The notes under the pieces: model-generated | The model's input: the letters and a program-made list of their open reading frames with translations, nothing else | What the model was told of the DNA's origin: nothing | Database searches by the model: none | Shown here: piece after piece, positions 43,593 through 50,896 of the stretch | How positions within the stretch are numbered: the first letter of the stretch is position 1 | Layout of the letters: the number at the start of each line of letters is the position of its first letter | NCBI GenBank assembly: GCA_014695255.1 | Contig: JACJNX010000061.1 | Location: 62,001-126,000, forward strand | Direction: 5' to 3' | DNA length: 64,000 nucleotides | From: Cyanobacteria bacterium FACHB-63 | Lineage (GTDB): Bacteria; Cyanobacteriota; Cyanobacteriia; Leptolyngbyales; Leptolyngbyaceae | Position numbers and translations under genes: made by a program

Positions 43593-44318
43593 ATGACTTA
43601 CTCGCTCCGCATTGCTGATCTTCCAGAGAGTGAACGTCCCCGCGAACGCCTGATCGCCCAAGGTGCAAGAATCCTCTCAACGGCAGAGCTTTTAGCTATC
43701 TTGCTCAGCACGGGTTCAGGAAAGCTTTCAGCCGTTGGATTGGGGCAGTACATCCTCAAGGATCTGAGTCAGCATGAGCGCGATCCCCTGAGTGCGTTGC
43801 GCGAGGTGAACATTGCAGAACTGACCAAAGTTCCAGGAGTGGGAACGGCAAAGGCGACGACGATTTTAGCGGCGATCGAGCTTGGCAAGCGAGTGTATCA
43901 ATCCCGCCCACCGGAAAAAACTGTGATTGATGATCCGAATGTTGCTGCTGCTGCTCTGAGTCACGAATTGATGTGGCAAACTACGGAGCGATTTGCAGTT
44001 TTGATTCTAGACGTAAAAAATCGGCTGATTGCAACGCAGGTAATTACGATCGGGACTGCAACCGAGACATTAGCTCATCCGCGTGAGATTTTTCGAGAAA
44101 TTATTCGGCAAGGCGGAACAAGAGCAATCCTTGCTCATAACCATCCATCGGGAAATGTTGAACCGAGTGCAGAAGATATCAATCTAACTCGCCAATTACT
44201 CGAAGGTGCTCGATTGTTAGGGATTCCATTGCTCGACCATCTAATTCTTGGCAACGGAAATCATCTAAGTCTCAGACAAACCACAGCGCTTTGGGACGAT
44301 GCACCGCAAGCGATTTAA
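43593..44318 (+). CDS. radC: RadC/MPN-domain protein
   Basis: 241 residues. UPF0758 family: an N-terminal HhH region ([22 protein letters not shown]) followed by a JAMM/MPN domain with [20 protein letters not shown], the HxH...S..D metal-binding motif. The molecular role is uncertain, although it was named for DNA repair; related genes are often linked to mobile or genome-integrity loci. A decayed copy of its 3' end lies at 50425-50588, on the far side of the big kinase gene. Confidence 0.93.
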
Positions 44319-44333
44319 TCGTTCTCAACTTAC

Positions 44334-44357
44334 CGTACAAAGGTTATCGTACAAAGG
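44334..44357 (+). repeat. Short direct repeat CGTACAAAGG
   Basis: CGTACAAAGG at 44334-44343 is repeated at 44348-44357, just before the left flank of the MITE. It is probably unimportant, but it marks a disturbed spacer. Confidence 0.5.
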
Positions 44358-44362
44358 AAAAT

Positions 44363-44505
44363 TGGTGTTGCTGAATGCAAGTATGGTTGTCCCTCATCCC
44401 CAACTCTTCTTCCTGGGGAGAAGAGAGACCTCTTGTTTCCTCTCTTTAGGAGAAGGGTTAGGGTGAGGGCAAATCCAAGGTTCATACTGAGATTTAGCAA
44501 CGCCA
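44363..44505. mobile_element. MITE-like element with TIRs and a GAAAAT target duplication
   Basis: Terminal inverted repeats TGGTGTTGCTGAAT (from 44363) and the complement of TGGCGTTGCTAAAT (ending at 44505) differ at 2 of 14 positions. Inside, CCCTCATCCCCAAC... and ...GGTTAGGGTGAGGG form a second inverted pair. GAAAAT flanks the unit directly on both sides (44357-44362 and 44506-44511), consistent with a 6-bp target duplication. It is 143 bp and carries no transposase. It lies between radC and the kinase, in the 360-base spacer. Confidence 0.75.
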
Positions 44506-44679
44506 GAAAATTTCTCAACACTCCTTTTAGGATGTATCTTCAATTCAAACTTATTAGCCGCAGTACTTTTTAAGTGAATTTAAACTAAGGCGAAAATCCT
44601 CACTCTTGGGAGAGATATATAGAAAAGAGTAATTCGGATTTAATAAGATGTCTCGTTTACGCATACGGTTAACTCTTTT

Positions 44680-47600
44680 ATGAAGCGCGATGCCACAGGT
44701 AAGTTTGTTCAAAATTGGAATTCAGAAGCCAAACAACGCGTTAGCATCTCGCTTACCTACACAGCCTGGCGATCGCTCGACAAAGAGGCACAAAAACGGG
44801 GAATTTCTCGCTCTGAAGTGATTGAACACTTTGCTCGCAATCTTGAGGCGGAGCGTTCTAACGAATCCAGTGGCGCAGATGCTCCAGTTGCATTGATTCA
44901 AAACCAAATTCTTGAGCAACAGCAGGAAATTGCAGCCCTACAAGGTCAAAAACAGGAGCTAGAGGCACGGTTAGAACAGGCGCTAAATACGATCGCCCAA
45001 ACGGCTGAGCGCAAAGTAACAACCATTCTAGAAAGTATCACCGATGCTTTTGTTGCCTTTGATCGAAACTGGCACTACACCTATGTCAATCAGGCTGCTG
45101 CTCAAATTTTGCACAAAACTCCCGAAGAATTGCTGAGTAAACACGTTTGGAACGACGTTTTTCCTGAACTAGTAGGTGGAGTCGCCTATCAAGCGATGCA
45201 TCAAGCCGTGGCAGAACAAGTTCCGGTGACCTGGGAAGAATTTGGGCAACCCGTTCAATGTTGGCTGGAAGCCAACGCTTATCCTTCTGCCGAAGGGATC
45301 GCCGTTTATTTTCGCAATGTGACAGAACGCAAGCAAGCAGAGGCGGAACGGGAACAATTACTCCAAGCGTTGGAAACGGAAAGGGCAAAATTTGAAGCAG
45401 TTCTGCATCAGATGCCCGCAGGAGTTTTCATCGCAGATGTTTCTGGCAAGTTGCTGCTTGCAAACGAACAAGCCAGACAAATTGTCAAATATGGCTTTGA
45501 AGATTCCCGCGAGCTAGAGGAGTATGCACCCGTTACCCCGTTTGAAGCCTTTCGCTCGAATGGAGAGATTTACGCATCGGATGAGTATCCCTTGGCACGA
45601 TCGCTCAGAAGCGGGGAAATCATTATCCGAGAGGAAATGGAGCTACGTCAGGAAGATGGCAGTTATACCGTTATTTCAGTCAATTCAAGCCCAATCCTAG
45701 ATAAGCAGGAGCGAATTCTGGCAGCCGTCGCGGTGTTTCAAGATATTACGGAGCGCAAGCAAACTGAGACGCTACTGAGGCAGCAGACGGAAGCATTGGA
45801 AAATCAGCAGAAATGGTTGGAAGCAGTGCTGGATTTAATGCCAACGCCAACCGTATTTATCGAACCCGAAACCGCACGAGTTACTTTTTCCAACCGAATT
45901 GCGAATGAATTAGCAGGGGGTGACTTACCAAAAGACAAATCCCTGGATGAGTATAGCGACGCTTATTACTGTACCGACGCGACTGGCAATCGCATTCCGG
46001 CCGAAAGAATGCCCGCCGTTCTAATTGCTCGGGGAAAACGGTTAGAAAACTATGAGATGAACTGGTACACACCCGGTGGCATTCGCTCAACTCTATGCTG
46101 GGGAGAAACCCTGCCAGCCATGCATGGGCATCCCACGATCGGCATTGGGATGTTTCAGGATGTAACTCGCCTCAAACAGACTGAAGAACACCTGCGACAG
46201 ACTGAAGAACGCTTACAGCTTGCCCTTGCATCTGCCGAAATGATTGCTTGGGACATCGATTTCAAAACCAATCAAGTGGTCTGTTCTCCAAACGCGCTAG
46301 AGATTTTCGGCATGGACGTGGGCACCGCAGACGCGTTTCGTGCGATGATCCATCCCGACGATCGACCACCCGTTAGGCAGGCGCTGGAACAAGCGATTGC
46401 GAGTGACCACTCCTTTTCTCAGGAATACCGAGTGATGAGATCCGATGACACGATACTGTGGCTGAAAAGTCAGGGGCGCGTCTATCTCGATGAGGCTGGA
46501 CACGCTACGCGAATGCTGGGTGTTTCGGTCAATATCACGGAGCGCAAGCAAATCGAAGCTGAACGCGATCGTCTGCTAGAGCAGGAACAGGCGAGCCGCC
46601 GATTGGCTGAAAAAGAACGTCAGCGGCTGCGAGACATTCTGATACAAGTGCCTGCTATGTTTGCCGTGCTGTCGGGTCCTGATCACGTCTTTGAACTCGC
46701 GAACTCCAAGTTTCTTACCATATCTGGACGTACTGAAGACATTCTTGGTAAGACAGCGCGTGAAGTATTTCCCGAAATGGAAGGTCAGGGATATTTTGAA
46801 ATTCACGATCGAGTCTATCAGACTGGGGAAATTATTCGAGAAGATGAATGCTTATCTCGTTGGGAGCCGGATAGGAATGGCAATCTCGTTGAAGGCTTTT
46901 TCAATCTTGTGTTTCTGCCGCTCAGAGACATTGATGGTTGCATCGACAGCATCTTGATTCATGGCATTGAGGTCACTGCCCAAGTTCAAGCTCGTGAGCA
47001 AGCGGAAGTCTTACTCCAAGAACTTCAGCACAAAGAAAGACAACAACAGTTCTTGATCGAATTGAATGATGCCATTCGTGCCCTTCAACACTCCGAAGAA
47101 ATTATGTGGCAAGTGGTGAGTTCCACAGGACAACATTTCAATGTCACGCGCTGTACCTACGGTGAAATTGATCCAACCCAGGAATACGTCATTGTTGATC
47201 GCGACTACTGCAATGGTGTGATTAGCGTTGTGGGGAGTCACCCCATGAATTCCTTCGGTTCAGACATCATCGCAGCATTGAAGCAGGGCAAAACCGTTGT
47301 GGTTGAGGATGTCGATCACGATCCTCGCACAATTGGCTCAGGGGCAGCGGCTTTTGATGCAATTCAGACTAAATCGCTGCTGTGTGTTCCCCTCGTCAAA
47401 GCAGGACGATTTGAGGCATTGTTAGTCTTACACCATGTTGCTCCTCGTCAGTGGACAGCAGAAGAGGTGGCATTGCTAGAGCGCATTGCTGAAAAAACTT
47501 GGCTTGCGGTGGAGCGATCGCGAGCAGAAGCGGAATTACGAGAAAGTGAAGCCCACCTGCAACTTGCGCTTAAAGTGGGACGAATGGGCACCTGGGACTG

Positions 47601-50424
47601 GGATATGCAAACAGGGACGCTCCTCTGGTCAGCAGGACAGTTCACCATTTTGGGACTACAGCCTGATGAGGATAAGCCTAGCTACGAACTTTGGGCAAGC
47701 CGGGTTTATCCAGATGACTTGGCAGAAGCGGAGACAAAGTGGCAACAAGCGATCGAGGAGCGAACAGAGTACCATCACGAATATCGCTTGCGCTTGCCAG
47801 ATGGCTCGGTTCACTGGGTCGAAGCGAGAGGGCAGTTCTCTTATGATGCTCAAGGACAGCCTAAGCACTCGATTGGCGTTGTGATTGACATTACAGAGCG
47901 CAAGCAAGCAGAAGAAACCTTGCATCAAACTCTACAAAAGCTCAATTTCCATGTCGAAAACACTCCCATGGCAGTCGTGGAATGGGACTATAACTTTCGA
48001 GTCATTCGGTGGTCTGCTGGTGCAGAACGCATTTTGGGTTGGAAAGCTGAAGAAATACTGGGTAAATCTTTAACTGAGATTCCGTTTGTCTTTGAAGAAG
48101 ACCTAGAACCAGTTGCCGATGTGTGTCAACGGTTGGTTTATGGTGAGGAACCACATATTTTCTCGTATAACCGCAATTACACAAAAGATCGCAACGTGGT
48201 GCATTGCGAGTGGTATAACTCCAGCCTGAGAGACAAATCGGGACGGATGCTTTCGGTATTGTCGCTGGTGTTGGATGTTACGCAGCGGAAGCAAGCCGAG
48301 CAGGAACGGGAGCAATTGTTAGAGCGCGAACGCCTTGCTCGCTCCCAATCCGAAGCGGCACAACAGCAATTGGCGGTGATCTTTGAAACATCTCCGGTTG
48401 GCTTAGCCTTATTAGATGCCGAGCAACGATTTAGTGCGATTAATGAAGCCTTAGCTGAAATTAATGGACTAACCCGTGAACAGCATTTAGGCTATTCAGT
48501 CCCAGATCTGTTTGGTCAGTCCGATGCCAGATTAGTCGAAGTCTTTCACCAAATCTACTCAACCGGAGATCCCTTCATTTCACCGAACTTTGCAGTGAAT
48601 GTTCCTGGACGGAACGATCGTCGTCCCGGTTACTACAACGTTTACTATTTGCCAACCGTCAACGCGAATCACCAGGTGGAAAGTGTTCTCATCTATGTGG
48701 TCGATGTGACGGAACGCGTTAGGTTAGAACGTGCCCAACAGTTTCTCTCCGAAGCCAGTGCAGTACTCGCCTCTTCTCTAGACTATCAAACAACCCTAGA
48801 GCGCGTTGCTCAGTTGACTGTCCCAGAACTTGCCGATTGGTGTACCGTTCACATCGTTGAGGAAGATGGCACCATAGACCAGATTGCCGTTGCCCACATC
48901 GACCCTGCCAAACTGGAGTGGGCGCATCAGCTGCAAGAGAAGTATCCACTAGACCCGAACGCTGCTCGTGGTGCAGCCTTAACTCTGAGAACGGGACTAC
49001 CGGATTTCGTGGCGGAGATTCCGGATGAACTGCTCGTTCAAGCCGCCCGCGATCCTGAGCATTTAGAGATCCTACGACAGGTCGGCTTCAGTTCCGTCAT
49101 GGCTGTACCCTTGCGAACTCAGGCACGAATTATTGGAGTCATTTCCTTTATCTCGGCTGAATCTGGACGACGGTACACTGCGGTAGATCTGCAATTTGCT
49201 GAGGAATTGGCGCATCGTGCCTCGTTAGCGATCGACAATGCCCAGCTCTATGAAGCCGCTCAACGCGATCGTGCCAAAGCCGAAGCTGCTAACCGAATCA
49301 AAGACGAGTTTCTGGCAGTCCTGTCCCATGAATTGCGAACACCGCTCAATCCCATTCTGGGTTGGACAAGGATGTTACGCACGAAGCACCTGAACGCGAC
49401 CAAAACTGACCAAGCGTTGGACACGATCGAACGCAATGCGAAATTGCAAGCGCAATTGATCGAAGACTTGCTCGATGTTTCCCGCATCCTCCAAGGAAAA
49501 ATGTCCTTAAACATTGCGCCCGTGAATCTAGCAACCACTATTGAAGCGGCTCTAGAAACCGTCCGCCTAGCGGCTGAAGCGAAACAGCTTCAGATTCAAA
49601 CTACCCTGTCCCCTTCAGGCAGCATCTTAGGCGACACAAACCGGCTTCAACAGGTTGTTTGGAATCTCCTGTCTAATGCCGTGAAGTTCACGTCCTCTGG
49701 CGGGAGGGTCGAGGTGTGCTTAGAGCAAGTTGGTACTTATGCTCAAATTCAAGTGAAAGATACGGGAAAAGGCATTCATCCAGAGTTTCTCCCCCACGTA
49801 TTTGACTACTTCCGCCAGGAAGACGGCGGCACCACCCGACAATTTGGGGGTTTGGGTTTGGGGCTGGCGATCGTGCGTCAGTTGGTGGAGCTGCATGGAG
49901 GAAGCGTTTGGGCAGAGAGCCTAGGACCTGATCTAGGCGCAACTTTTGTCGTCCGTCTGCCCTTAAACCGGATGGAGCAGGCACCCGCTTCGGAGATTGA
50001 GAATCCAGAAGCTGCGGTAGATTTGACCGGAATTCGCGTATTGGTGGTAGATGATGAAGCGGACATGCGCGAGTTGGCATCATTCATCTTGACCGAAGCA
50101 GGTGCACAAGTGACAACAGCAAGTTCGGCAACAGAGACACTGTTTCTCTTGAATCAATCAGTTCCCGACCTCCTGTTATGTGATATTGGTATGCCAGAGA
50201 TGAATGGCTATTCTCTAATTCAGCAAATTAGAAAGGGGTCACCGGAGCAAGGAGGCACCCTCAAAGCGATCGCTCTAACTGCTTACGCTGGAGAGGTCAA
50301 TCAGCAACAAGCCTTAGCCGCAGGGTTTCAAATGCACCTCTCGAAGCCCGTTGAACCGGAGGAATTGGTAAAAGCAGTCTCATCACTCATTGCGACAAAT
50401 TCGTCGCGCATAATATCCCTCTAG
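44680..50424 (+). CDS. Multi-PAS/GAF hybrid histidine kinase with RHH-like N-terminus
   Basis: 1914 residues, no membrane segment. The N-terminus (KQRVSISLTYTAWRSLDKEAQKRGISRSEVIEHFARNLE) resembles a ribbon-helix-helix/CopG DNA-binding unit. A coiled coil follows, then PAS domains at roughly 115, 240, 380, 510, 650, 960, 1088 and 1230, with GAF domains at ~795-940 and ~1360-1520. The kinase core has the phospho-His in LSHELRTPLNPIL (~1550), then HATPase N/G boxes (NLLSNAVKF, DTGKGI, GLGLGLAIVRQL), and a receiver (~1786-1905) with DD in LVVDDEADM, Asp in LLLCDIGMPEMNG and Lys in LSKPVE. It signals by autophosphorylation and probable transfer to its own receiver. The stimuli are unknown. Confidence 0.93.
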   Translation: MKRDATGKFVQNWNSEAKQRVSISLTYTAWRSLDKEAQKRGISRSEVIEHFARNLEAERSNESSGADAPVALIQNQILEQQQEIAALQGQKQELEARLEQALNTIAQTAERKVTTILESITDAFVAFDRNWHYTYVNQAAAQILHKTPEELLSKHVWNDVFPELVGGVAYQAMHQAVAEQVPVTWEEFGQPVQCWLEANAYPSAEGIAVYFRNVTERKQAEAEREQLLQALETERAKFEAVLHQMPAGVFIADVSGKLLLANEQARQIVKYGFEDSRELEEYAPVTPFEAFRSNGEIYASDEYPLARSLRSGEIIIREEMELRQEDGSYTVISVNSSPILDKQERILAAVAVFQDITERKQTETLLRQQTEALENQQKWLEAVLDLMPTPTVFIEPETARVTFSNRIANELAGGDLPKDKSLDEYSDAYYCTDATGNRIPAERMPAVLIARGKRLENYEMNWYTPGGIRSTLCWGETLPAMHGHPTIGIGMFQDVTRLKQTEEHLRQTEERLQLALASAEMIAWDIDFKTNQVVCSPNALEIFGMDVGTADAFRAMIHPDDRPPVRQALEQAIASDHSFSQEYRVMRSDDTILWLKSQGRVYLDEAGHATRMLGVSVNITERKQIEAERDRLLEQEQASRRLAEKERQRLRDILIQVPAMFAVLSGPDHVFELANSKFLTISGRTEDILGKTAREVFPEMEGQGYFEIHDRVYQTGEIIREDECLSRWEPDRNGNLVEGFFNLVFLPLRDIDGCIDSILIHGIEVTAQVQAREQAEVLLQELQHKERQQQFLIELNDAIRALQHSEEIMWQVVSSTGQHFNVTRCTYGEIDPTQEYVIVDRDYCNGVISVVGSHPMNSFGSDIIAALKQGKTVVVEDVDHDPRTIGSGAAAFDAIQTKSLLCVPLVKAGRFEALLVLHHVAPRQWTAEEVALLERIAEKTWLAVERSRAEAELRESEAHLQLALKVGRMGTWDWDMQTGTLLWSAGQFTILGLQPDEDKPSYELWASRVYPDDLAEAETKWQQAIEERTEYHHEYRLRLPDGSVHWVEARGQFSYDAQGQPKHSIGVVIDITERKQAEETLHQTLQKLNFHVENTPMAVVEWDYNFRVIRWSAGAERILGWKAEEILGKSLTEIPFVFEEDLEPVADVCQRLVYGEEPHIFSYNRNYTKDRNVVHCEWYNSSLRDKSGRMLSVLSLVLDVTQRKQAEQEREQLLERERLARSQSEAAQQQLAVIFETSPVGLALLDAEQRFSAINEALAEINGLTREQHLGYSVPDLFGQSDARLVEVFHQIYSTGDPFISPNFAVNVPGRNDRRPGYYNVYYLPTVNANHQVESVLIYVVDVTERVRLERAQQFLSEASAVLASSLDYQTTLERVAQLTVPELADWCTVHIVEEDGTIDQIAVAHIDPAKLEWAHQLQEKYPLDPNAARGAALTLRTGLPDFVAEIPDELLVQAARDPEHLEILRQVGFSSVMAVPLRTQARIIGVISFISAESGRRYTAVDLQFAEELAHRASLAIDNAQLYEAAQRDRAKAEAANRIKDEFLAVLSHELRTPLNPILGWTRMLRTKHLNATKTDQALDTIERNAKLQAQLIEDLLDVSRILQGKMSLNIAPVNLATTIEAALETVRLAAEAKQLQIQTTLSPSGSILGDTNRLQQVVWNLLSNAVKFTSSGGRVEVCLEQVGTYAQIQVKDTGKGIHPEFLPHVFDYFRQEDGGTTRQFGGLGLGLAIVRQLVELHGGSVWAESLGPDLGATFVVRLPLNRMEQAPASEIENPEAAVDLTGIRVLVVDDEADMRELASFILTEAGAQVTTASSATETLFLLNQSVPDLLLCDIGMPEMNGYSLIQQIRKGSPEQGGTLKAIALTAYAGEVNQQQALAAGFQMHLSKPVEPEELVKAVSSLIATNSSRIISL

Positions 50425-50588
50425 AAACACTGAACCGAGTGCCGAAGACATTGCCTGATCCGTCAATTACTCGAAGACGCTCGATTTCTTAGCATCTCGA
50501 TTTTAGATCGCCTAATTTTGGCAATGGTACACACTTAAGTTTGAGGCAAGCCACTGCACTCTGGAATGATGTGCAGCAAACCAGATGA
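50425..50588 (+). pseudogene. Decayed 3' remnant of a second radC
   Basis: Directly after the kinase stop codon, the DNA matches the 3' end of radC (44150-44318): NTEPSAEDI, then IRQLLEDARFLSISILDRLIL and GNGTHLSLRQATALWNDVQQTR, spread over different frames because of an in-frame stop and frameshifts. In the intact gene the same run reads [54 protein letters not shown]. The remnant ends at a TGA at 50586-50588. It is not functional. Confidence 0.9.
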
Positions 50589-50620
50589 ACCGTGTATACA
50601 CAGCTTTTGCATACACGGTT
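50588..50620. terminator. Hairpin downstream of psaK
   Basis: AACCGTGTAT (50588-50597) pairs with ATACACGGTT (50611-50620). It lies 9 bases beyond the psaK stop. There is no T run on the psaK strand, so intrinsic termination is uncertain. Confidence 0.45.
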
Positions 50621-50629
50621 CCCCTCTAC

Positions 50630-50896
50630 CTACAAAACGCCAGCGTTACTAAGTCCAAGAATTACACCTGCGCCAATCACATGTCCCAAGCTCATTGTTC
50701 CAAGCAGTTCGGGAAATCCAAAGCCTTCAAACAAGGCGGGCGACTCTAACGGTAATTTCGGACCCACGCCGCGATTTTTGATCGCAAAACGTCCGATCGC
50801 AACCGAAAACAAACAGCACAGCGTCATGACCAAGCCAACCATCGGTGTCCATTCAACGGTTCGGGGCATTACGGCAAGTAGTGTTGAGTAAAGCAA
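50630..50896 (-). CDS. psaK: Photosystem I reaction-centre subunit PsaK
   Basis: 88 residues, two membrane segments. TVEWTPMVGLVMTLCCLFSVAIGRFAI...GPKLPLESPALFEGFGFPELLGTMSLGHVIGAGVILGLSNAGVL is PsaK. The start is set at the TTG at 50896, with AGGAG at 50904-50908 (7 bases away); an ATG at 50866 would remove part of the N-terminal leader. The longer open frame to 50974 lacks such a site. PsaK sits at the edge of PSI and helps attach light-harvesting partners. It lies 92 bases downstream of the amidase operon. Confidence 0.92.
   Translation of the reverse strand: MLYSTLLAVMPRTVEWTPMVGLVMTLCCLFSVAIGRFAIKNRGVGPKLPLESPALFEGFGFPELLGTMSLGHVIGAGVILGLSNAGVL

Follow-up and report, generated by a model that had tools for sequence, protein, structure and literature searches.

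The radC gene of the cyanobacterial genome analysed here (G000) is, to judge from its sequence, a chimera that joins a native 5' part to a 3' part from another lineage, and it is followed by the gene of a large hybrid histidine kinase and by a further radC 3' end, which on the identities given below is the native tail, decaying by substitutions and single-base deletions. We think it probable, on balance, that a relative's radC 3' part and the kinase gene were imported into radC by homology-facilitated illegitimate recombination, with displacement of the native tail. The locus lies in a stretch of 64,000 nucleotides (the window; G000:C138:62001-126000), where radC, a MITE-like repeat, the kinase gene, the radC remnant and a minus-strand gene behind the kinase, for which we keep the name psaK given by the first-pass annotation, follow one another in that order. 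The features that enter into the argument are these:

43593 to 44066, plus strand: native 5' part of radC (codons 1-158), differing from the radC of the congener G004 at 23 of 476 positions before the change point and grouped with it in the tree (100/99).
44054 to 44078, no strand assigned: putative left crossover zone inside radC, given by the maximum-likelihood change point and containing a run identical between G001 and G004.
44070 to 44318, plus strand: presumed imported 3' part of radC, differing from G004 at 67 of 247 positions; nearest G001, 79%.
44362 to 44515, no strand assigned: MITE-like repeat between radC and the kinase gene, with 12 matches in its own genome.
44680 to 50424, plus strand: presumed imported multi-PAS/GAF hybrid histidine kinase, 1914 aa, recognized by its Pfam domains and its identity to congener copies.
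50400 to 50401, no strand assigned: right, non-homologous junction of the kinase with native radC codon 179, placed where the kinase homology ends and the remnant homology starts.
50401 to 50587, plus strand: displaced native radC 3' end, differing from G004 at 23 of 187 positions and grouped with it (99/95).
50587 to 50621, no strand assigned: the radC-psaK hairpin, which now follows the kinase gene, recognized by fold energy and by identity to G004 over 50588-50620.

That a radC remnant stands behind the kinase, as the first-pass annotation had proposed, is borne out by its local alignment to the 3' part of the intact gene, which scores 84, whereas 292 random 200-base stretches of the window reached 38 at most; the two copies are identical in 127 of 172 aligned columns, with seven single-base gaps. 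The remnant had been delimited as 50425-50588; it runs instead from about 50401 to 50587, aligning with the radC 3' end from 44128 on, that is, with its last ~60 codons. Its start ranges from 50394 to 50406, depending on the scoring scheme, when the intact copy alone is used, and falls at 50401 against G004. A protein search of the same genome matched part of the remnant weakly (E 0.005, outside a listing cut-off of 0.001), and a plasmid collection searched with the remnant gave no match. The homology, described at first as beginning directly after the kinase stop, begins about 24 nt upstream of that stop, inside the kinase gene, so that the C-terminus of the protein reads ...ATN-SSRIISL*, its SSRIISL and stop being an out-of-frame reading of radC. 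The codons concerned, TCG TCG CGC ATA ATA TCC CTC and the stop TAG, are radC sequence in another frame, and the last seven codons and stop of the kinase thus come from radC; elsewhere, copies of this kinase close with ATNAVRS, ATNAV or ATPAA.

The two radC 3' ends have different nearest relatives. The remnant is 86.6% identical to the G004 radC 3' end (the 23 differences among 187 positions being accompanied by single-base deletions) and 68.4% identical to the intact copy of its own genome. Within the intact gene, the ~158 native codons are 95% identical to G004 and the next ~80 codons 73%, with G001 nearest; when the gene is divided at the core sequence described below, the 5' part is 93.6% and the 3' part 71.0% identical to G004, and the 3' part is 79.3% identical to G001, again the nearest. 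A two-rate change-point model places the switch at 44069 (2-lnL interval 44054-44078), with 23/476 differences before and 67/247 after, a change as strong as which occurred in 0 of 1000 permutations. Fourfold sites differing from G004 number 15/89 in codons 1-158 versus 20/30 in codons 161-241, the corresponding counts in three neighbouring genes being 19/148, 50/248 and 66/219. Because the divergence of the remnant is comparable with the fourfold divergence between G000 and G004, the import was probably not recent.

Phylogenetic trees were built from 32 genomes, drawn from the 41 with a radC match in a search of 42 genomes of the family (G012-G017, G018, G025 and G041 were left out). The 5' part of G000 joins G004 (100/99), and in the tree of the 3' end the remnant joins G004 (99/95); the intact 3' part of G000 falls outside the clade of G006 and the radC-psaK genomes (98/84), nearest G001. 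Forcing the 5' part together with G001 is rejected by the AU test (p 5e-6). Forcing the intact 3' part together with G004 and the remnant lowers lnL by 21 with p 0.088, so that this tree is not formally rejected by the AU test alone. The hybrid gene (43593-44318; Pfam RadC) encodes an open RadC frame of 241 aa that has the HNHPSG motif. Elsewhere in the data, the radC of G025:C9 seems internally deleted, matching only codons 1-65 and 203-239, and G001 carries two more, distant radC homologues on a 521-kb contig (G001:C2:130065-130769, 54%, and 111563-112012, 35%).

These results bear on the earlier suggestion of a second radC, arisen by duplication or insertion. A tandem duplication of radC in this lineage, with one copy decaying and the kinase landing between the two, would explain why two radC 3' ends are oriented alike, but it would leave copies closest to each other and of equal ancestry; here their mutual identity is 68.4%, the remnant is closer to G004 (86.6%), and the intact 3' part has its nearest relative in G001 (79.3%, versus 71.0% to G004). 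On the different ancestry of the two 3' ends, in identities and trees alike, we reject duplication within the lineage, a scenario that we find hardly credible. The insertion half of the suggestion stands; in place of a second radC there would be a native remnant and, in front of the kinase, an imported 3' end. The two 3' ends have in common an exact run of at most 13 nt, which makes loss of the kinase by recombination between the copies seem unlikely.

The insertion itself is visible in a comparison of eight genomes of the genus, G000 and seven congeners. In G004, radC adjoins psaK at a distance of ~45 bp; its match to the window is 91% as far as 44318 and 93% from 50401 onward, and the insert is wholly absent between these flanks, so that G004 represents an empty site. 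An empty radC-psaK site is what the first-pass annotation had predicted, and its finding upholds the view that an insertion placed the kinase at radC. The kinase insert parts the two genes in G000, an element lies within radC in G007 instead, and radC and psaK occupy separate loci in G001 and G006. In G002, G003 and G005, ~0.8, 0.5 and 0.9 kb of other sequence, respectively, lie between radC and psaK. This gap varies in content across the genus: by eye, G002 has a gene resembling a methyltransferase there and G003 one resembling an acetyltransferase, and G005 has other sequence. No relative combined the order of the window with a non-homologous tail in place of the remnant: the order radC then kinase was found in G001 only, at another locus and without a remnant, the kinase sitting there between radC and a methyltransferase gene. 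At the same locus in G006, radC adjoins the methyltransferase gene and the kinase is missing.

The chimeric radC, the native remnant and the radC-kinase order of G001 together indicate that the segment comprising the radC 3' part, the MITE-like repeat and the kinase gene was imported. At its left end, 44055-44074 is the only run of at least 15 nt that is identical between the radC genes of G001 and G004, and it lies inside the change-point interval, where a homologous crossover with a donor resembling G001 would be expected; if G006 or G026 stands in for the donor, identical runs of at least 15 nt lie elsewhere in radC. At its right end, the kinase (..ACA AAT) is fused to native radC codon 179, the two homologies abutting at 50400/50401, and at most 1-2 bases at this joint are common to the G004 and G027 kinase ends and to G004 radC. 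Between the left switch and 50401 (the equivalent of radC 44128), native radC has lost about 50-74 bp, against an insert of 6.3 kb.

Homology-facilitated illegitimate recombination is defined, in the available portion of PMC3240628, by one homologous and one non-homologous end. Both kinds of end seem to be present here: a switch within radC at 44054-44078, with G001 as the stand-in donor, and a joint without homology at codon 179. The same portion of that source gives microhomology of 3-10 bp at the joint as usual in transformation, with none in three of four E. coli conjugation clones, and a loss of ~1 kb of recipient DNA as usual, which is far more than the loss in G000. Such microhomology, usual though not required, is lacking at codon 179, where 1-2 bases are found with the G004 and G027 kinase ends as stand-ins.

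Under the reading that we favor, an ancestor with radC directly before psaK, as in G004 today, would have taken up DNA from a relative that carried radC followed by the kinase. The incoming DNA would have been a linear piece, acting in a single step of homology-facilitated illegitimate recombination, and the segment retained from it would comprise the radC 3' part, the MITE-like repeat and the kinase gene. On the left, a homologous crossover would have taken place inside radC at 44054-44078; on the right, the kinase would have been joined without homology to native codon 179. radC would have stayed an open frame since the donor 3' end completes it, and the native 3' end, stranded behind the kinase, would have provided the last seven codons and the stop of the kinase and then decayed. 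The stem and loop of the hairpin that follows (50588-50620) are identical in G004, and the sequence from 50575 to 50640 folds at -17.3 kcal/mol (z -4.6); this old radC-psaK hairpin probably now terminates the kinase transcript.

The main rival to this account is a circular or larger molecule, bearing a donor radC 3' part and the kinase, of which a single homologous crossover would duplicate the radC 3' end and a later deletion fuse the kinase to codon 179. A single crossover does predict that a hybrid radC should precede the kinase and a native 3' end follow it, and a deletion at the right junction is plausible given that the original last codons of the kinase are gone and that the remnant is in decay. 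According to the part of PMC3240628 at hand, moreover, most of 60 E. coli recombinants had a duplicated gene end, which is attributed there to a trimmed circular molecule that recombined by a single crossover. The scheme nevertheless requires a second event; the 50-74 bp following the switch, which should persist after a single crossover, are absent from the remnant; and no sequence resembling a plasmid backbone lies between 44319 and 50400. We regard it as unlikely, though with an appreciable chance of being right.

The kinase (44680-50424, 1914 aa) has Pfam PAS, GAF, HisKA, HATPase_c and Response_reg domains. It is 89.9% identical to a copy in G004 (G004:C36), 89.8% to one in G027 (G027:C61) and 84.1% to the G001 copies, its homology ending at 50400 against the G004 and G027 copies and at 50396 against G001. 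In the fetched sequence, radC is not adjacent to the G004 and G027 copies. Searched with residues 1-110 of the kinase, the 42 family genomes gave eight with a match at E 1e-10; in four of these eight, G000 included, the match spans all 110 residues at no less than 78%. No donor was found among the genomes examined; the order is that of G001, yet the kinase copies of G004 and G027 are closer, so that the donor was presumably an unsampled lineage with the radC-kinase order. The matches of the MITE-like repeat in its own genome include itself, and 10 of the 12 are partial; none was found in the kinase loci fetched from G001, G004 and G027. The plasmid collection, queried with the kinase cassette, returned 20 records; the one from Kovacikia minuta (1.2 Mb) covers 89% of the cassette at 75.4%, and the other plasmid matches, among those listed, are partial only. 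Concerning the G004 copy, which lies on G004:C36:1-10754 between a ParA-like region and an apparent 16S rRNA start at the contig end (both by eye), we considered and set aside its designation as a plasmid kinase: although a ParA-like gene was noted by eye on the 10.7-kb contig, the contig ends in an apparent 16S rRNA gene start, also noted by eye, and so may be chromosomal. The identification of a frame beside this copy as a primase was likewise rejected, the frame having no Pfam family match.

From the interrupted genes of related genomes, the import spot in G000 radC is one where other mobile DNA also inserts. The radC of G007 is split by ~35 kb, with codons 1-186 at C10:28553-29116 and codons 176-241 at 64232-64429; both junctions carry the exact 12-bp repeat GCGATCGTGGCT, and the first gene inside encodes a large serine recombinase. 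The radC core that we propose as the attachment site, GCGATCGT, lies just upstream of HNHPSG. In the search of 42 family genomes, radC proved to be split at the same codons in G027 and G034, whose recombinases are 59% and 47% identical, respectively, to that of G007. G027 carries an element of ~31 kb at the radC site (G027:C124:45500-81000), with a recombinase present and an imperfect repeat; G034 has the 8-bp sequence GTGATCGT at both radC halves, which lie on two unjoined contigs (C34 and C33), and a recombinase beside the 3' half. A search for the recombinase in 290 genomes of the taxonomic class gave matches at E 1e-40 in 10 genomes and at 12 places. The closest three are those of G007, G027 and G034, each with radC beside it; none of the other nine, at 35% identity or less, has radC in the fetched flanks.

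A VapE-like helicase and an actin-like partition protein are encoded in the G007 element (G007:C10:27500-47000 and onward), and a primase-like protein and an actin-like partition protein in that of G027; both elements are reminiscent of integrative plasmids or of phage satellites. Inspection by eye further pointed, in the G007 element, to a tyrosine-integrase-like gene and to genes for a DNA methylase and a small histidine kinase. Four neighbouring proteins on contig C34 of G034 had no PHROG family match, and viral contigs searched with the recombinase alignment yielded two loci, at 33% only.

One may then ask whether the 6.3-kb insert of G000 is itself a site-specific integrative element that used the codon-179 site and regenerated the radC 3' end. 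Its right junction (the equivalent of 44128) falls inside the 12-bp repeat (the equivalent of 44124-44135) that flanks the serine-recombinase element of G007, and G027 and G034 have their radC split there too. Against this, the insert has no recombinase gene, 44070-50400 holding only the radC 3' part, the MITE-like repeat and the kinase gene, and G000 has no close relative of the G007 recombinase, the nearest being only 23-29% identical; the ends are not at the same core, the left switch lying 46-70 bp upstream of it and the right end inside it; and the order radC-kinase is an ordinary donor type. With a left switch upstream of the core and no recombinase, simple attachment-site insertion is disfavored, and we consider it very improbable.

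The probability that the right junction would fall by chance inside the 12-bp core is 12/726 bp, or ~2%, as judged after the fact, and the position suggests that a break at the core site may have started the import in G000. A fuller conjecture, to which we would give a small chance, is that a group of large serine recombinases not yet described uses codon 179 of radC in cyanobacteria as its attachment site, and that one such enzyme cut radC there in the ancestor of G000, the break then being repaired from the radC-kinase locus of a donor. Were this true, the target site of a mobile element would have seeded both the kinase import and the completion of radC in one event. The link between the radC recombinase group and the G000 junction is only suggestive.

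On the favored reading, import by homology-facilitated illegitimate recombination, the locus is a readable natural case of import with one homologous and one non-homologous end, in which the empty site, the donor-type order, the crossover zone, the junction and the displaced tail are all identifiable, and in which a housekeeping gene can remain complete even as its tail is exchanged and a gene for signalling is newly added. It is like the cases of Streptococcus, Acinetobacter and Pseudomonas treated in the accessible part of PMC3240628, in that one end is joined in a common gene and the other without homology, foreign DNA being gained and some recipient DNA lost. Unlike the cases in that part of the source, it combines a very small recipient loss, at most 1-2 bases at the joint and a 6-kb insert, and it is a natural event rather than a selected one, with a hybrid target gene that stays open. 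The deletion in homology-facilitated illegitimate recombination is usually about as long as the insert; here, ~50-74 bp stand against 6.3 kb.

The same process has been proposed for displaced 3' ends of T6SS effectors and for orphan Rhs 3' regions (PMC5361080, in the part available). The G000 locus resembles the Vibrio T6SS effector arrays and Rhs orphan 3' regions of that part in its constant upstream anchor, its new 3' part and gene, and the displacement of the old 3' part or gene downstream; it differs from them in having radC as anchor and a sensor kinase as cargo, and in carrying neither a toxin gene nor an immunity gene. Insertion into radC is known in Firmicutes from the Tn554-like transposons Tn554, Tn558, Tn559, Tn5406 and Tn6188, which lie just downstream of a conserved motif, according to the part of PMC3788773 at hand. 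As in that family, radC is repeatedly targeted beside its conserved motif; unlike what the same part describes of the family, which has its own transposases, the G000 insert has no transposase or recombinase genes, and its right junction lies upstream of HNHPSG.

The radC genes of G007, G027 and G034, each split and with a serine recombinase gene beside a radC fragment, are like cyanobacterial interruption elements such as fdxN/XisF, as far as these are covered in the available text of PMC4874684, a survey of such elements in which radC has no occurrence. G007 shows a split gene, a recombinase near one end and direct repeats at both; the G000 insert is not such an element. Among the matches listed in a limited literature search, we found no report of cyanobacterial radC as a site of serine recombinase action, integration or interruption. 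Tn554-like transposases are of the tyrosine type, and since all three of the closest serine recombinases stand at radC in cyanobacteria, recombinases of unrelated classes may target radC in phyla far apart. The G000 locus is a fresh instance of an already known type of event, for insertions into radC are known in Firmicutes and homology-facilitated illegitimate recombination is known as well; the radC serine recombinase group of cyanobacteria, a side finding, may be new.
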